Source: a virus. Taken from it: a stretch of DNA of 20,365 nucleotides. Below, piece after piece: positions 250 to 20,187 of this stretch. The translations under genes were made by a program, and so were the position numbers. Within the stretch, counting starts at the first letter, position 1. Each line of letters starts with the position of its first letter. The stretch covers positions 1-20,365 of the IMG/VR virus record IMGVR_UViG_3300049719_000098; one strand, 5' to 3'. Under the pieces are notes generated by a model. The model was not told where the DNA came from, made no database searches, and was given only the letters and a program-made list of their open reading frames with translations.

Positions 250-1212
250 TCACAATTCTTCTGAAGATACACATTTATCATCAATTGACCATTCAACGTA
301 TTCCCATCCATGTTCTTTACAATATTCTAACGCAACTTCACGCTTCGCTGCATTTTTTGGTGTAGAACGTAATGACACAGGTTTTACCTCTATCAGTTGT
401 TCAGTACCATCTTTAAACAAGACATAAAAATCTGGAACGTAGAAATGTTTTGCACCCTCAAAGATATATGGAATTCTTGTAAATTCAGACTTCCACGTTA
501 TGACTTCTATGTCTTCATCAAGTGATTGCATTAACGCAAGTTCCCAAGACGATCTATAATAATGTTGTTCGTTTGTTTTTGAAGAAGTGTGCATTCCTTT
601 TGCAAATTCCCACCCGCCGTCGAGGTACTTTTGTGAAATTGAAATTGACAAGTTCAAATTACGTTCCGTAAAATCATATTCTCCCGCAGCAAACCTTCGT
701 TTGAACGTTTCAGCTGCCTTAAGACGTGCATCTTGCATGATACCACTTTCCCTCTCCCACAAAGATTTCGCATGATCAGAAAACTCTTGTCTTTGTTCAT
801 CAGACATGTTTTTATATGCTTCACGTGTTGATGCAAGTCTTCGTTTTTCAACTTCAGGTGTGAGCCCAGCACGTAGTTGTATTACTTTTGCAGCACATGC
901 TTCAGGATGTTCTTTGAAGAACCTCTTTTGATTAATTGAATTCTTTTCACCAATGCGCCGCTTTTCGTCTTCAGATTTTATGCGAAACTGTGCATGATGA
1001 CCATGAACGTACGTGTTATAACGTTTTATCATTACATGCCATGTTGTCTCTTCTCCACATCCACACTCGCACAAAGAACGTATATTGTTGCATTCCCATT
1101 TCAAGTAATATTGTTCATACGTCATCTTGTGAACTTTTACATGTCGACGAACGCCTTCGGCATCTTTAAATTCTTTCCCGCATTCTTTACATGTTATATC
1201 ATTTTCTATCAT
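250..1212 (-). CDS. Free-standing homing endonuclease, zinc-finger N-terminus and PD-(D/E)XK (EDxHD-like) nuclease domain
   Basis: This 320-aa protein is probably a phage mobile endonuclease that cuts related genomes near the neighbouring capsid gene. The N-terminus has a C2H2-like finger (C8, C11, H24, H28), followed by a CECGCGEET cluster (C48, C50, C52) with GHH at 71-73, a zinc-binding arrangement common in phage homing nucleases. Residues 80-200 are basic and helical, in the style of DNA-binding modular repeats. The C-terminal domain (about 215-310) has E224 in RSSWE, P260-D261 in YVPDFYV and E275-x-K277 in LIEVKP, which is a PD-(D/E)XK core like the Vsr-related EDxHD nucleases (I-Bth0305I type). 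It starts at ATG 1212 with no convincing ribosome-binding site. It lies 124 bp downstream of the major capsid gene beyond a hairpin, so it is probably weakly expressed or has its own promoter. A counted line is only 33% GC, against about 60% in the capsid gene. The fold family is fairly sure; the target is inferred. Confidence 0.75.
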   Translation of the reverse strand: MIENDITCKECGKEFKDAEGVRRHVKVHKMTYEQYYLKWECNNIRSLCECGCGEETTWHVMIKRYNTYVHGHHAQFRIKSEDEKRRIGEKNSINQKRFFKEHPEACAAKVIQLRAGLTPEVEKRRLASTREAYKNMSDEQRQEFSDHAKSLWERESGIMQDARLKAAETFKRRFAAGEYDFTERNLNLSISISQKYLDGGWEFAKGMHTSSKTNEQHYYRSSWELALMQSLDEDIEVITWKSEFTRIPYIFEGAKHFYVPDFYVLFKDGTEQLIEVKPVSLRSTPKNAAKREVALEYCKEHGWEYVEWSIDDKCVSSEEL

Positions 1213-6949: not shown

Positions 6950-7649
6950 ATGTTTGTGCTCACACGTAAGTTCTGTGTCTACGTCGATTTCATCGAAAAA
7001 ACGGTGAATTCATTCCTGGATACGTTGGAAAAGGAAATCAAGTGCGTGTCAATGGATACGAACGTAATCGACAACATCAAAACTATGCAAAGAAATACGA
7101 CTGGAAACGTGTGGTCGGATTTGAGACTGACGATGAATGCGAAGTGTTTGAGGTAGAAAAAATTTTGGTGGGAGCGCTTCACACGTTTGTTAAAGATACT
7201 GAAAAATCTCTTTACGCGTGTAATCAGACATTGGGTGGCGAAGGAAATGGCATGTTTGGCAAACAACACAGTGAAGAAACACGTAGCTTGATATCTGAAA
7301 AACTAATCGGTCAGTCATTGACAAAAGAACGGTGTAAGAACATTAGTGTTGGAGCAAAAAGTCTTGGTCAATTAATCGAGAAAAACGTTGTGTCATTGCA
7401 AAAGAAGTTGCAAATCGTGAAGAGAGCAAAGAATTGTTGCGAGAACGTTGGTCAGGTGTTAAAAATCCAAACGCTCGTGCAGTCGAACAGTACACAAGAA
7501 ATGGTAAATTCGTTGTGCAATATAACACAATGACTGAGGCACTTAAAAATACAGGTATACCAATTTGCGGTATTTGGGGATGTTGTAACAATAGACAAAA
7601 ACATTCACATGGATTTGTTTGGAAGTACGTTTTAGCTGGTGATAGCTAA
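6950..7649 (+). pseudogene. GIY-YIG homing endonuclease with NUMOD3 and NUMOD1, broken by two frameshifts
   Basis: This is the only plus-strand gene. Read across three frames it makes one GIY-YIG endonuclease. From ATG 6950 the first frame gives MFVLTRKFCVYVDFIEK. After the A6 run at 6996-7001 it continues one frame back with GEFIPGYVGKGNQV, ERNRQHQNY, EVFEVEKILVGAL, CNQTLGGEGN and a NUMOD3 block (MFGKQHSEETRSLISEKLIG). After the A5 run at 7356-7360 it shifts again to NREESKELLRERWSGVKNPN and a C-terminal NUMOD1 helix-turn-helix (AVEQYTRNGKFVVQYNTMTE to HGFVWKY). Adding one A to each run restores about 233 codons with the GIY, YIG, Arg and Glu positions in place. As written it cannot make the full protein, so it is a decayed gene or carries sequencing errors. 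Its 3' end overlaps the convergent 178-aa gene by 18 bp. A free-standing homing element inserted in the adhesin cassette is the likely origin. Confidence 0.8.
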
Positions 7650-13533: not shown

Positions 13534-13601
13534 TGTGTCAACCTCTTCTGTGCCACGCCAACGTGATACAAAAATAAGTATGTTAGTTCATGATTTTAAA
13601 G

Positions 13602-13674
13602 TGACAAAGGCTGGATTTGAACCAGCCACACCAAGATTTTCAGTCTTGTGCTCTACCAAATGAACTACTTTGCC
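13602..13674 (-). tRNA. tRNA-Phe (anticodon GAA)
   Basis: The minus strand folds as a full 73-nt cloverleaf. The acceptor is GGCAAAG with CTTTGTC (one G-U pair), the D arm GTTC/GAGC around a GG-containing loop, and the anticodon stem CAAGA/TCTTG with loop CTGAAAA (anticodon GAA). The variable loop has 5 nt, and the T arm is GCTGG/CCAGC with loop TTCAAAT. The discriminator is A; CCA is not encoded. It starts about 10 nt after the stop of the 55-aa ORF and ends before the 276-aa gene, on the same strand, so it would be processed out of the head-gene transcript. Confidence 0.93.
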
Positions 13675-13875: not shown

Positions 13876-16800
13876 TTACACTATCTCGACGTCAATGTCA
13901 AGCTCTATACTTTGATTTAATCCATCTATCTCATCCTGTACATCAATTCCCTCAGTCAACACTCTTTTTTCAACAGTGCCACCGTCAAAGTTTGCCTCGC
14001 GGAAACGCTTGCTCTGTGCCATATCGCTCAGCGTCTTTCGCATGACGCTCGTTATCTTGACACGTTTTTGAGTGCTCTTGCTTTCAGTTGCTAGCTCCCT
14101 AAAGAAATCCTTGTCGTAAGGATCGTCAAGCAGGTCTCCCGTCTTTGCCATTCTGTCAACTTCAGGCATGTACGTTGTCGAAGCGCCGTGGTGACGCTGA
14201 CGTTGGTTGTTGTACAGCGCCTTCTGCAGGTGACCATTTGGCTTTATTGGCAACGAACCGTCGAGCTCGAGCATTGCCTTGTTCACGAAGTCATCGTCCT
14301 CGTCAACGTCAGACGAAGTCAAGAGCTGCGCGTCATCGTCATGCAGCGTCCCTGCGTTTTCTGGCTTCTCCTCTTTTTCTGCGCTCGCTTCGGGCTTTTC
14401 TTCCTTTTCAGGAGAGCCTTCTTTTTCACCACCTCCGCCAAACAAGTCTTCATCGCTCTCGCCATCACCCGACTTGTCTGCAACGACCTGTTCACCTGCG
14501 CCTGCGTTCTCAATCGCAGCGTCAACGAGCTTCTCATCGTACCTCTCCTCGTCGAGGGTCTCAATCTGCTCATTGTTGAGCATCAAGATTTCCCTACGAA
14601 TGAAGTTACGAGAAGCCATTCCTTCAGGTGCAGAACCTGCAATCTCAAACTTGGCGCGCCACAGCTCGAGTTTTTGCTGCTGCGCGACGGTTGAAGGATT
14701 TGACAACCGGAGCACAAAGTTCTGCAGGTCGTCGCCCTTGAAACCGTGCGCGAACAGGTGAATGACAGCAATCTTGTTGAGCTCTGCAATGATGACGCGC
14801 TGAATGGAAGCGATTGAACGAGAAAATCGCACGTCGAGTTGAGACAGGGAAGCTTTTGAGCCCAAAGCGTCGCCGTAGCCCAAGTACGCCGCAGGTATCT
14901 TCAGCGCCGCGAACAGCTTCTTCTGCAGGTACGCAACGTCCTCAACGTTGCCCTGGTTCTGCAGGCCTGCGAGCGTATCAATCTTGGTGCCGGACTCACC
15001 GCCGCGGGTTGCTATCACATAATCTTCATCGATCGAATTTTTTACAAAAATGCCATCATTTTGAACTTCAAACACACCATCTACACACTTTAATCCACAC
15101 ACCGCAAAATTGTGTCTGTCATCTTCACCGTTCAACCCAACGACTGTCATGCAATACACGTCCTCAGCATCAACGTGTACACGTTCAATTTTCGTAACTT
15201 TGTGATTTTTTAGTGGTTTGATACCGACTTCTTGAAGTACTTTTTTCTTAAAATCTCCAAAACCTTCATATCCCATTTGAACTAATTTGTTTACCCACAT
15301 GCCGCAACTCATCTTGCGTAGGCGATGGTATGTCTGCACTGAATTCAACATTGTCACGACTTCTTCGTTCGACATCATCTTTTCGTGCAAACCATCTCTT
15401 GACAATCGAGGATTAGCAATCAATTCTTGCTTACAAATTTCAATAAATTCATCAGGAATAACGCACTTCATCACTGACTGACGTTTTGCACGTGAAACAG
15501 GATCGCCCCAACTTTTTAACTGCGCCTGACGACGAATTTCATTGTGACTTGCATGTAATGATGTGCCATTGTACATCTCACCCATCTTTTCAGCTTTTCG
15601 ATAAAGTTTATTTGCTGCAATGATGACGTTTTTATGCTCGTCTGTCTTGTTCATCTCTGCAAACTTTGCAGCCTTTATCACAAGTTGTTCAGGAGAATTT
15701 AAAGTAAACTGAATTTGTTCAGTGTGATAGTGTTTGTGTTCACTATACGTCATCCATTGCAAATTTTCAGGAGCATTATTTCGTTTTCTAAAATTCACAT
15801 GATGTACTACACACTGCTTAGCATGTTGCTTTTCAACAACGCTCTCTGCAACAATTCTGTGCGTGTACTTGTACTTGTCTGTTGACGGGTCATACGTTTT
15901 TTCATACCCGTCGATGTAATCTTTTTCAACCTTTGAGCTCAACTTTCTGTACAGTGGCATCAAGCTTTGACCGCGCTTGAGCTCGTCTGCACGCTTGCTC
16001 GTCCCGTCTCTCATCACGAACGGGTGTTCAGGCGCTGTCATGACGTAGCTGTCATTGTCAAGCCACACCTTTATCAATTCTTTCGCAGCATAGTTCTTAC
16101 CACACCAAATGACTTTTCCAGGAACCAACTTATTCGTCTTGTCCTGTACGCTGTACACCCACTTCATGTTATCAGGATCATTCGAGAGTTCACTTGACAA
16201 CTGTTCAATTGTTATTACTCTTCCATCGAGCAATGGTATCGGTGTGTCTTTGTGCACGGGAAGTGGGGAGTAGCGTAGGTCAACCCTACCCGTCTCCTTG
16301 TCGACGACGCTCGACGTCCGAAGCTTCTGCTTCTGCTGTTCCATGTACGCCTCGACCTCGTCAGGAGGCAGGTTTGCAACGTCGACGTAGAACACGCGAC
16401 GTTCAGGAGCACGTGATACTCTGTACACCAGCATGGCGTCCTCGAGAAGCATTAGCTGCCGCCAGATTTTACGTGCGGACTCTATCCAGGAACACCCGTA
16501 GGGTATGAATTGATCCTGTCCCAACAATCTAAAGTGCGCAATTTCCCAATTCTCAAGCGTCCTGTTTCCCATCGAAACCCAACGAAAGCGGGTTGCAAAG
16601 GGATCATTGCGGTCATAGTTTTCTTCGCGTTCGATTTCATTCACGGGTACAGGAAATGAACCAACGACACCGTAATTAGGATGCACGTCTATGTACTGGA
16701 ACGAGTCGCCGTACTTAATTGTATTTCTCACCAAGGAGCGCAAACTAAATTCCATATTTAAGGTGTCGTAAAATAGCTCTTCGATAGTTTCTTTGATCTT

Positions 16801-17139
16801 TGGATTGTCACTGTAAACATGAAGAGCGCGCCCCTTATCGTCGACGCTGCACGTTTCGTCCGCTACGATATCCAAAGTTGACGATATCTCCGCGGTCTGC
16901 TCCATCTCCTGAAAATCTTGCATGCGCATCAACCGCTCAGACAAGTTATAAGCATTACTCGTGATTGTTGCGTACGTTGGTGACAACGATTTCTGAAATA
17001 ACAAAACGCCACTTGACTTTACTTTGTCAGGTGTTGCCATCGCAGTATCAAAACTGCGTATCTTTCGCTTAACAACACTTCCACTTTTGAAGAGTGTTGA
17101 CAACTGTTGAAACAGATTTCTATCTTTGCTGTTTGACAT
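13876..17139 (-). CDS. 20: Portal protein, T4 gp20-like, containing an intein
   Basis: This gene encodes the twelvefold portal through which DNA enters the head. The extein parts show gp20-like features: RLMRMQDFQEMEQTAEISST near the N-terminus, IVADETCSVDDKGRALHVYS, WEIAHFRL, IESARKIWRQLMLLEDAMLV, YRVSRAPERRVFYVDVANLP and, after the intein, SIDEDYVIATRGGESGTKID and VAYLQKKLFAALKIPAAYLG. The ATG at 17139 was chosen because it overlaps the upstream stop (TAATG). An in-frame start at 17175 would add 12 residues. The precursor is 1087 aa. Removing the 408-aa intein (residues 294-701) leaves 679 aa, longer than T4 gp20 (524 aa) mainly through a C-terminal tail with acidic Glu/Lys/Pro repeats (EKEEKPE twice, near nt 14355-14412) and a charged end. 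A functional portal requires splicing or an intact copy elsewhere. GC is high in the exteins (35 of 60 in line 14881). Confidence 0.92.
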   Translation of the reverse strand: MSNSKDRNLFQQLSTLFKSGSVVKRKIRSFDTAMATPDKVKSSGVLLFQKSLSPTYATITSNAYNLSERLMRMQDFQEMEQTAEISSTLDIVADETCSVDDKGRALHVYSDNPKIKETIEELFYDTLNMEFSLRSLVRNTIKYGDSFQYIDVHPNYGVVGSFPVPVNEIEREENYDRNDPFATRFRWVSMGNRTLENWEIAHFRLLGQDQFIPYGCSWIESARKIWRQLMLLEDAMLVYRVSRAPERRVFYVDVANLPPDEVEAYMEQQKQKLRTSSVVDKETGRVDLRYSPLPVHKDTPIPLLDGRVITIEQLSSELSNDPDNMKWVYSVQDKTNKLVPGKVIWCGKNYAAKELIKVWLDNDSYVMTAPEHPFVMRDGTSKRADELKRGQSLMPLYRKLSSKVEKDYIDGYEKTYDPSTDKYKYTHRIVAESVVEKQHAKQCVVHHVNFRKRNNAPENLQWMTYSEHKHYHTEQIQFTLNSPEQLVIKAAKFAEMNKTDEHKNVIIAANKLYRKAEKMGEMYNGTSLHASHNEIRRQAQLKSWGDPVSRAKRQSVMKCVIPDEFIEICKQELIANPRLSRDGLHEKMMSNEEVVTMLNSVQTYHRLRKMSCGMWVNKLVQMGYEGFGDFKKKVLQEVGIKPLKNHKVTKIERVHVDAEDVYCMTVVGLNGEDDRHNFAVCGLKCVDGVFEVQNDGIFVKNSIDEDYVIATRGGESGTKIDTLAGLQNQGNVEDVAYLQKKLFAALKIPAAYLGYGDALGSKASLSQLDVRFSRSIASIQRVIIAELNKIAVIHLFAHGFKGDDLQNFVLRLSNPSTVAQQQKLELWRAKFEIAGSAPEGMASRNFIRREILMLNNEQIETLDEERYDEKLVDAAIENAGAGEQVVADKSGDGESDEDLFGGGGEKEGSPEKEEKPEASAEKEEKPENAGTLHDDDAQLLTSSDVDEDDDFVNKAMLELDGSLPIKPNGHLQKALYNNQRQRHHGASTTYMPEVDRMAKTGDLLDDPYDKDFFRELATESKSTQKRVKITSVMRKTLSDMAQSKRFREANFDGGTVEKRVLTEGIDVQDEIDGLNQSIELDIDVEIV
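15037..16260 (-). mobile_element. Intein in portal protein, with HNH homing endonuclease domain and Pro at position 1
   Basis: This is a 408-aa in-frame insertion in the portal, residues 294-701 counted from Met 17139. Hint-domain blocks are visible: block A PVHKDTPIPLLDGRVITI, block B TAPEHPF (T368, H372), block F DVYCMTV (Cys663) followed by HNFAV, and block G NDGIFVKN ending in Asn701, with Ser702 as the +1 residue. Between blocks B and F lies an HNH-type nuclease: CVVHHVNFRKRNNAPENLQW and HKHYH (His446, His447, Asn449, Asn459). Joining RYSPL to SIDEDYVI restores a continuous portal sequence, which fixes the N-terminal residue as Pro, not Cys or Ser. The penultimate residue is Lys, not His. 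The element is AT-rich (22 of 60 G+C in line 15601) compared with its host gene. Intein identity is sure; the N-terminal boundary is fairly sure; splicing activity is inferred. Confidence 0.9.
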
Positions 17140-17894
17140 TATATTTTCAACTTCTTTAACATTTGTAAGTTCCACAATTCAGAATTCGTGTAAGCGTCAT
17201 GAAACCAATTCCATTTTAGCGTCTGCGTTTCACGTAGCCACGATCCCTTAATCTCAACATATTTATCTTTGTGAATGCCGTCGAGAATGTGTAAGTCGAT
17301 AAAATCCGTTCGTCCTCGAATGTTTTCAGGAGCGTCGAGTGGAATTTTTATTGGAACTTGCCACTCATAATCTATTTTATTTTCATTCAACCAACGTGCA
17401 ACTGAACACTCATACGACGCAGTACAAACAATTTCTTCACCCGTTTTCCAGTGTTTATAAGTAGTCGTGTTATGACGCGATTTAGTCGTTCTATTACGAA
17501 TTTCAGCGCTTTTTTGAGGATTATCGACGCCATAATTTTCAATCATGGTTTGTTTTGCTTTTTCTCTATGTATTGTCGATCCCAATACATTTTCACAGCC
17601 ATAACGTATCAAGTTCGTTGCTGCAATCTTTTTTCGAATTTCTTTTCCACCTAATGGAAATTTGCTCCCGTAACGGGCAACATTCGTTTTCTTTATTTTC
17701 TCATTTGCTCGTAATTGATGTTGACAACCTTTTAGAACGTTCGAAACCCACGCTTCATATTCACCATAATCTTTGTCAATAAACGTTGCTTTTCTTGCCG
17801 TACCAAAATATGAAGTTCTTACAATACTCACAATGTCACCATGCACAATTTTTAGTCGTCGTTCGACTTCTTCAATTGCGATTGGCCTTTTCAT
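17139..17894 (-). CDS. Free-standing EDxHD (PD-(D/E)XK) homing endonuclease upstream of portal
   Basis: This 251-aa protein is a mobile DNA endonuclease. The middle contains repeated YG modules of the DNA-binding type found in phage nucleases: VARYGSKFPLGGKEIRKKI, LIRYGCENVLGSTIHREKA and NYGVDNPQKSAEIRNRTTKS. The C-terminal nuclease domain has E162 in ASYECSVARWLNE, D197/D200 in RTDFIDLHI, E214-x-K216 in YVEIKGSWL and H232-D233 in WFHDAYTNSELW, a good match to the EDxHD layout of Vsr-like homing nucleases. The stop codon overlaps the portal start (TAATG), so the gene sits directly between whatever drove the portal gene and the portal itself. ATG 17894 has no clear ribosome-binding site. It lies 86 bp after the 137-aa gene, beyond a small hairpin. 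Together with the intein it gives the portal locus two unrelated homing nucleases. Target specificity is unknown. Confidence 0.77.
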   Translation of the reverse strand: MKRPIAIEEVERRLKIVHGDIVSIVRTSYFGTARKATFIDKDYGEYEAWVSNVLKGCQHQLRANEKIKKTNVARYGSKFPLGGKEIRKKIAATNLIRYGCENVLGSTIHREKAKQTMIENYGVDNPQKSAEIRNRTTKSRHNTTTYKHWKTGEEIVCTASYECSVARWLNENKIDYEWQVPIKIPLDAPENIRGRTDFIDLHILDGIHKDKYVEIKGSWLRETQTLKWNWFHDAYTNSELWNLQMLKKLKI

Positions 17895-18949: not shown

Positions 18950-20187
18950 CTAAACTCGTTTTCTTGAGCTCCCGCAAGAGGTTTCTCCACAGACTTTTTT
19001 TGGATCGACCTTTTTGAAGGTTTTTCCTCGATCCCGGCGACTCACCGGTACGGTGCAACCGTTACGAACGGTCACGTTTTTTAAAATTTCCAATTGTCTA
19101 AGCAAGTTCTTTGCTGCATTATTGTCTCTATCGTGGCATATTCCGCACGCTTCACAAATCCATTCTCGATCATTTAACTTCAACTTTTCGTTTTTGTATC
19201 CGCAATTCGAACACAACTTTGACGAAGCGAACCATTGATTTGCAACGAATAAGTTTGTTCCATGCCATGAACACTTGTACGAAAGTTGACGTCTAAATTC
19301 TCCAAACGCAGCATCAAGAACTTGTTTTTGAAACTTCATCGATTTTACATCTAAATCTTCGATCACAATTGCTGACTTGGTTTTCGAAAGCACACTTGTG
19401 ATTTGATGAATGAAGTTTGATCTCACATTTGAAATGTCAAAGTGAATTTTTGTACCCGTTTCTTTGCTTTTTGTCTGTTCTTTGATCCCTTCTTTTTCTT
19501 TGACAACTTTCGTTGTGCTCTTTTTAATTTTTTCTCAAATTTCTTGAATACTTTGATTGGTTCAAATTTTGTTCCGTCTGAAAGTGTTGCGAAAGTTTTA
19601 ATGCCCAAGTCGACGCCAACTGAGGTCTCAGCGAAAATTTCTTTTTGTTCGACTTCTTCAATTTCTCTTGATGTATTAATTGATATAAACCATCTTCCAC
19701 AATGTTCTGACACCGTCACCGAAAGAATTCGTCCTTCAATACGTTTGTCAATATTTTTTTCTTTTGTCTTTACATGCCCAATTCGAGGAATTTTAATATA
19801 ACGAGATTGAATTTTAACTCCTAAATTTGTTATACGAAAACTATCTCTTTGACCTTTTTTCTTGAATTTCGGAAATCCGACACCTTCTTTTCTTTGTCTC
19901 CAAAAATTCATGAAAGCTTTATCAAGATCAAGCAATGCCTGCGTAATAACCGTCGATGGCACCTCATAAAGCCAAGCGAGATTAGTTTTCTTTAGAAGAT
20001 TAATTTCTCTGTTATCTTCAACGTAGTTTGAAAACTTGTCTTTTCCTTCATTTTCTTCAAACAGTTTAATTCTTTTTACGAGTGCCCAGTTCCAGATAAA
20101 TCGACGAGCTCCCACGTGCTTCCTCAATAACGTCACTGTTACATTGTTAGGATCGAGTTCAAATTTATAAGATTGAATTCGTTGCAC
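18950..20187 (-). pseudogene. tnpB: TnpB (IS200/IS605 family) split by a one-base frameshift
   Basis: Two overlapping reading frames (20187-19423, 254 aa, and 19426-18950, 158 aa) together make one TnpB, the RNA-guided nuclease of IS200/IS605 elements. The first frame has the typical start (GTG, MQRIQSYKFELDP), FIWNWAL, GFPKFKKKG and RuvC-I VGVDLGIKTFATLSDG (D193). It then drifts into FTLTFQM and stops. The second frame, read upstream of its GTG, gives KIHFDISNVRSNFIHQ, the expected continuation, followed by RuvC-II IVIEDLDVKSM, CSNCG and CEACG zinc knuckles and RuvC-III CHDRDNNAAKNL. Adding one A to the A5 run at 19447-19451 restores 412 codons with all three catalytic acids. The gene is thus a recent frameshift or carries a sequencing error. 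No TnpA lies in the window, so it may be a TnpB-only element. It sits 43 bp before the 160-aa gene. Confidence 0.85.

Follow-up and report, generated by a model that had tools for sequence, protein, structure and literature searches.

A proline-first HNH intein in a T4-like phage portal gene and its family with an invariant block F cysteine

Class 3 inteins, recognized by a Trp-Cys-Thr (W-C-T) signature at positions B:12, F:4 and G:5, are the described inteins with which the present one shares a non-nucleophilic first residue and a cysteine at F:4. Their mode of splicing is viewed as having arisen once (PMC4031507), and class 3 inteins are considered hardly derivable directly from class 1 inteins (PMC7664689). 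Such a step does not come easily: a class 1 intein given the W-C-T residues together with Cys1Ala hardly spliced (PMC7664689). Replacement of the Trp by Ala blocked splicing in the other class 3 inteins tested (PMC5222942). The AceL NrdHF intein, with Met at B:12 and neither of the C-terminal His residues, still uses its F:4 Cys, and a Thr-to-Ala variant at G:5 continues to splice, roughly ten times more slowly (PMC7891396). The His at F:13 and the penultimate His both assist Asn cyclisation (PMC10663303).

Here we describe an intein in a 20,365-base IMG/VR virus record, the whole of which was analysed and is called the window below. The intein begins with proline and, of the W-C-T signature, has only the Cys at F:4. 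We are fairly confident that it is a self-splicing HNH homing intein of a T4-like phage portal protein, which would splice by an F:4-initiated, class-3-like route reached independently from Cys1 portal inteins.

The portal gene and its insert

The window carries T4-like head genes, namely those for a prohead protease, the gp23 major capsid protein and the gp20 portal protein. The ORF at 13876-17175 on the minus strand is the gp20 portal gene (Pfam Portal_T4, E 6e-65; PHROG 213 portal, E 2.9e-61). It is broken by an intein with an HNH_3 domain (E 5e-7 (5.3e-7)), and the reading frame is intact across portal and intein. The features of the locus are as follows, with intein residues numbered from Pro1.

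13876..17139, minus strand: gp20-like portal precursor gene, starting at the ATG of MSNSKD, with Portal_T4, HNH_3 and PHROG 213 matches
17175, minus strand: in-frame GTG upstream of that ATG, a possible alternative portal start
16261..17139, minus strand: N-extein, ending in RVDLRYSPL (-1 is Leu), from alignment with the intein-less L083 and L082
15037..16260, minus strand: intein of 408 amino acids, P1 to N408, from the empty-site alignment
16243..16260, minus strand: block A, PVHKDT, with Pro1 at A:1 and thus no N-terminal nucleophile (Pro1 in 61 junction-mapped inteins)
16102..16104, minus strand: Cys53, within W-C-G, invariant in the Pro1 family; most Cys1 relatives have Ala or Val here
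16018..16038, minus strand: block B, TAPEHPF, with Ala76 at B:7, His79 at B:10 and Phe81 at B:12 (Trp in class 3)
15733..15870, minus strand: predicted HNH_3 homing endonuclease domain (ORF residues 436-481; PHROG HNH families)
15142..15159, minus strand: block F, VYCMTV, read from the sequence
15151..15153, minus strand: Cys370 at F:4, invariant in the Pro1 family, the residue proposed to initiate splicing and to carry the first branch
15112..15114, minus strand: His383 at F:13 (His in 61 of 61), proposed helper of Asn cyclisation where no penultimate His is present
15037..15048, minus strand: block G, FVKN, with Val406 at G:5 (Thr in class 3), Lys407 penultimate and Asn408 as the residue that would cyclise
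15034..15036, minus strand: Ser+1, to which the N-extein would pass to form the second branched intermediate
13876..15036, minus strand: C-extein, SIDEDYVIATRGGESG..., from the empty-site alignment

Both junctions were fixed by two intein-less relatives (L083/L002 and L082/L018), whose N-extein is 89-90% and whose C-extein is 95% identical to that of the window; at the DNA level the flanks of the empty site match at 77-83% on either side. Both read RYSPL/SIDEDYVI (here and below, a slash marks the insertion point) with zero extra residues, and therefore the intein starts at Pro and the +1 residue is Ser. The register is unambiguous because neither L and N nor P and S are exchangeable at the borders, which places the exact junctions at Leu(-1)/Pro1 and Asn408/Ser+1. 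The empty sites rule out a junction shifted by one residue or lying at a Cys or Ser, and the existence of 60 relatives rules out Pro1 as a sequencing error. A prior sequence-only reading of this DNA had placed a Pro-first portal intein at 15037-16260 and had taken the join of RYSPL to SIDEDYVI as its boundary; the two relatives agree with it on both counts, and its residue numbers P294, C663 and N701 are correct when counted from the downstream Met at window position 17139.

As an in-frame insert that is absent from close homologues and has blocks A, B, F and G as well as the Hint fold, the element is an intein, and the HNH_3 domain within it marks a putative endonuclease. A gapless alignment with relatives puts Thr at B:6 and Ala at B:7. 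An AlphaFold2 model based on 50 family members (pLDDT 89.2) matches inteins in the PDB; class 1 inteins make up most of the 50 Foldseek matches listed for it, which include neither of the class 3 entries 6rix and 6bs8. When profiles are aligned, W52-C53 coincides with the first two residues of the DnaE motif W-H-D, Cys53 lying opposite the His. The G+C content of the intein is 0.41, as against 0.47 and 0.52 for the exteins, which fits a mobile insert.

Residue 1 is Pro, not the Cys, Ser or Thr of class 1; the host is a portal protein with Ser+1 and Cys F:4, not a KlbA orthologue with Cys+1 and Asp F:4 as in class 2. It has two features of class 3, the lack of Cys, Ser or Thr at residue 1 and a Cys at F:4 (Cys370), and has Phe81 in place of Trp B:12 and Val406 in place of Thr G:5. 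The prior reading had likewise noted the block F Cys, an incomplete W-C-T set and a penultimate Lys rather than His, and Phe81, Val406 and Lys407 are indeed what is encoded.

Several other elements lie in the window. Upstream, abutting the portal start, an ORF at 17139-17894 (minus strand) has DUF7487 and PHROG homing-endonuclease matches and is possibly, judging by these matches, a free-standing homing endonuclease beside the intein-bearing gene. A tRNA-Phe (GAA) gene at 13601-13674 (minus strand) lies close downstream of the portal gene. An ORF at 250-1212 (minus strand) combines an N-terminal zinc-finger/MucR-like match with a TnsA-like nuclease domain (PHROG head closure, endonuclease), and on the other strand a short ORF (7042-7533, plus strand) has a NUMOD3 motif and is likely a homing-endonuclease remnant. 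At 18950-20187 (minus strand) there is a TnpB-like gene (OrfB_IS605/Cas12f1-like TNB) which is divided between two overlapping ORFs and is therefore broken or frameshifted.

Proline-first inteins in viral portal genes

Using each extein half, and also an alignment of Pro1 inteins, as queries against viral contigs, we obtained 110 junction-mapped intein sequences after manual clean-up, nearly all in gp20 genes. In this IMG/VR set, 61 inteins begin with Pro and 49 with Cys or Ser. The Pro1 inteins occupy three portal sites: RN[LMTV]/CKYGD (30 inteins), RYNP[LM]/S-DEDY (29, including that of the window) and LPGG/TGDIDD (2). Cys F:4, His B:10, His F:13 and Cys53 are invariant in all 61, and none has a penultimate His or an Asp at F:4; among the 49 Cys1/Ser1 portal inteins, 35 have Asp at F:4, 36 have a penultimate His and only one has Cys53. 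Such a combination of Pro1, Cys53, B:10, F:4 and F:13 in 61 junction-mapped inteins is not due to chance. Other positions are variable. B:12 is F in 37, W in 7, Y in 7, I and L in 4 each, and M and V in 1 each, with all seven Trp cases at the RN[LM]/CKYGD site; G:5 is V in 39, L in 12, S in 5, I in 2, and T, M and C in 1 each; Ser is the commonest residue at G:6 (27/61); and the +1 residue is C in 37, S in 19 and T in 5.

The pattern of our first family scan included the F:4 Cys and was thus unable to test it. The scan was repeated with residues 3-50 only, and was then blind to positions 1, 53 and F:4. It returned 42 distinct Pro1 inteins, with Cys F:4 in 39 of the 39 that have a complete C-half; the remaining three stop before block F at a contig end or a frameshift. 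Because the blind scan gave the same result, ascertainment bias is ruled out as the source of the F:4 invariance, and six members found via the extein scans alone were likewise consistent. Pairs of close Pro1 inteins have dN/dS values of 0.06-0.19, and the Pro1 inteins are therefore maintained rather than decaying.

Viral contigs are the only place where we see the family, as a scan of genome contigs gave no matches; a single-query scan of viral sequences gave none either. None of the matches examined in named phages is Pro1, the six annotated inteins that we checked there beginning with Cys, and we found no description of a Pro1 portal intein family in the open-access literature searched, subscription journals being mostly outside the scope of that search.

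We note some further features of individual portal genes. Several inteins can occupy one gene (four in L173, three each in L085 and L119), and L126 and L130 each have two Pro1 inteins in one portal. L085:804-1328 is a natural mini-intein of 175 amino acids. Gln replaces the terminal Asn in two inteins (L075:2891-4000, and L138 at its site c), one of which is Cys1 and the other Pro1. The Pro1 intein of L231 has its frame broken inside the intein, as a pseudogene or an assembly error, and the near-identical L230 is intact.

Splicing route and ancestry

Proline has no side-chain nucleophile, and therefore the first step of class 1 splicing is impossible here. The candidates for the initiating nucleophile are Cys F:4, which would imply class 3 chemistry, Ser+1, which would imply class 2 chemistry, and Cys53. 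We favour F:4 because it is strictly constrained while the +1 residue varies freely. In the route that we propose, Cys370 would attack the Leu(-1)-Pro1 peptide bond directly, with assistance from His79 (B:10), and a thioester-branched intermediate would form on Cys370. The N-extein would then be transferred to Ser+1, Asn408 would cyclise with His383 (F:13) assisting in place of a penultimate His, and an O-N shift would yield the mature portal protein. That the invariant F:13 His covers for the missing penultimate His is probable given that both assist the same cyclisation. The window intein lacks the Trp and Thr of the class 3 signature, which counts against an F:4 route; their loss need not be fatal to it, because AceL NrdHF tolerates Met at B:12 and an Ala variant at G:5. 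The prior reading had suggested a variant splicing route in which Cys663 attacks the N-terminal junction directly. The attack is still the best explanation, as the F:4 Cys is never lost in the family, but it would be known class 3 chemistry and nothing novel; AceL NrdHF (PMC7891396) is already one tested precedent for an intein that has lost the Trp and both C-terminal His residues.

The remaining accounts of how, or whether, the intein splices all seem improbable to us. Ser+1 could attack the N-terminal junction directly as in class 2, with Cys F:4 merely assisting; like KlbA, the window intein has neither a residue-1 nucleophile nor a penultimate His, and KlbA has Ser at G:6 (PMC4031507), the commonest G:6 residue in the Pro1 family. 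Class 2, however, comprises only KlbA orthologues with Cys+1 and a required Asp F:4 (PMC4031507), and a family with Cys at F:4 in 61 of 61 members and C, S or T at +1 is constrained at F:4, not at +1, which makes a class 2-like attack quite unlikely. Comparably unlikely, in our estimation, is a role for Cys53 as the nucleophile, or as a redox or metal pair with Cys370 that gates splicing. This residue is nearly exclusive to the Pro1 inteins (61/61 against 1/49), is kept in the Cys1 members of their clade (L194 and L270), and aligns to the His of the DnaE motif; moreover, His48 and His125 of the BIL2 domain bind zinc (PMC9200820), His48 being only presumed to correspond to the Cys53 position. 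Yet no known intein initiates at this point, whereas F:4 is the known class 3 position. Least credible of all is that the change to Pro1 abolished splicing and left a dead intein. Class 1 inteins are indeed inactivated when residue 1 is lost, and a pseudogene intein resembling class 3 is on record (both PMC3196547); the relative L231, too, is frameshifted. Against this, purifying selection acts on a family with at least 60 intact members, their host is a head gene that appears to be single-copy, one portal can hold as many as two Pro1 inteins (L126, L130), and the window ORF is itself intact.

A different question is whether these inteins are true class 3 inteins by common origin, which lost Trp B:12 and Thr G:5 and acquired an HNH domain. 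Class 3 inteins are deemed monophyletic and phage-derived (PMC3196547, PMC4031507), and 7 of the 61 Pro1 inteins, all at RN[LM]/CKYGD, do have Trp at B:12. As class 3 references we used phage inteins from BAKA, Makalu and Dusk TerL, the Gamgam RecB-like protein, D444 and KpGz_1. BAKA aligns to 6rix, a crystal structure of a class 3 intein, with W, C and T at matching positions, which confirms its class. In hhalign comparisons the Pro1 profile matches the Cys1 portal profile over 381 columns that include the HNH domain (probability 100%, E 3e-87), versus 45 columns at a probability of 36.7% for the W-C-T class 3 profile. A trait-free model of the Pro1 splicing domain scores Cys1 portal inteins at 42-128 bits, and the Cys1 intein L194b, which lies inside the Pro1 clade, at 211 bits, whereas class 3 inteins score no higher than 11 bits, near noise. 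Our careful tree supports the Pro1 clade at 99/99 and places class 3 at a great distance from it; a topology with class 3 attached to the Pro1 stem, which would suit a common origin, was not rejected by an AU test (p 0.51), since class 3 lies too far off to serve as a root. The Trp at B:12 is not a class 3 mark here because Phe, Leu, Met and Trp are common at this position in class 1 as well, and 82.5% of class 3 inteins carry LAGLIDADG (PMC7891396). We therefore regard a common origin with class 3 as unlikely, if a good deal less so than the alternatives above; an independent origin from class 1 portal inteins is probably the better reading, mainly by virtue of the full-length match.

With regard to INTERMEDIATES and reversal, Cys1 is combined with Cys F:4 at the window's own site in L085, L188/L040, L176 and L186, and the Cys1 inteins L194 and L270 lie inside the Pro1 clade and keep both Cys53 and Cys F:4. 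The nesting of L194 and L270 is supported at 98/92 and 97/99 in the full-length tree, with Pro1 monophyly not formally rejected (p 0.095); the two are 74% identical and their Cys1 codons differ. A return to Cys1 from Pro1 seems the likeliest explanation for them. We lean slightly towards a second, independent origin of block-F-cysteine splicing that would have passed through surviving Cys1 plus Cys F:4 intermediates, would depend on another supporting set (Cys53 and His F:13, without Trp, Thr or penultimate His), and would have been reversed in L194 and L270. In a different host gene, the dCTP deaminase of Aphanizomenon phage CL131 (L121:946-2613), there is a Cys1 HNH intein with Cys F:4 and a Lys-Asn end.

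What is new here, as far as comparison of sequences can tell, is the Pro1 family as a whole, its probable derivation from Cys1 portal inteins and not from those of class 3 with W-C-T, the second invariant cysteine (Cys53) and the relatives in intermediate states. These findings suggest that an unusual route thought to have a single origin evolved a second time. With a large Pro1 family that matches class 1 portal inteins over its full length, and with class 1 relatives in which both cysteines are already present, the question of a direct origin from class 1 becomes open to experiment. If F:4 splicing proves true, W-C-T defines one lineage and not a mechanism, and sequence-based classification must change. 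Proline-start inteins may also be of use in protein engineering.

Comparison with known intein classes

Among the closest known inteins are Cys1 HNH gp20 inteins such as L085, L040/L188, L176 and L186, which share with the window intein the insertion site, Cys F:4, the N-terminal region and full-length homology including the HNH domain. They differ in having Cys1, in lacking Cys53 and the GED-DRHNF insertion in block F, and mostly in having a penultimate His. The class 2 intein KlbA (Ala1) is like the window intein in lacking both a residue-1 nucleophile and a penultimate His, but has Asp F:4 and direct attack by Cys+1 where the window intein has Cys F:4 and Ser+1.

The W-C-T class 3 inteins (MP-Be DnaB, Mle/Msm/Mch DnaB, Bvi IcmO and mycobacteriophage TerL) share with it a non-nucleophilic residue 1, Cys F:4, His B:10, a terminal Asn and a Ser/Thr-type +1 residue, and their block B, like that of the window intein, is often without Thr at B:7. 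The MP-Be DnaB intein probably also begins with Pro. Unlike these, the window intein has no Trp B:12, Thr G:5 or penultimate His, carries HNH instead of LAGLIDADG, and has no full-length homology with them; Cys+1, found in 37 of the 61 Pro1 inteins, is a further difference at the level of the family. The split class 3 intein AceL NrdHF (M-C-T), for which use of F:4 is experimental (PMC7891396), likewise lacks Trp B:12 and the penultimate His, and differs in being split, in keeping Thr G:5, in having Ala1 and in lacking the F:13 His. By the W-C-T definition, with two of its three residues replaced, the window intein is not class 3; under the looser rule of no Cys at residue 1 plus Cys F:4 (PMC7891396) it would be, and it probably works like one.
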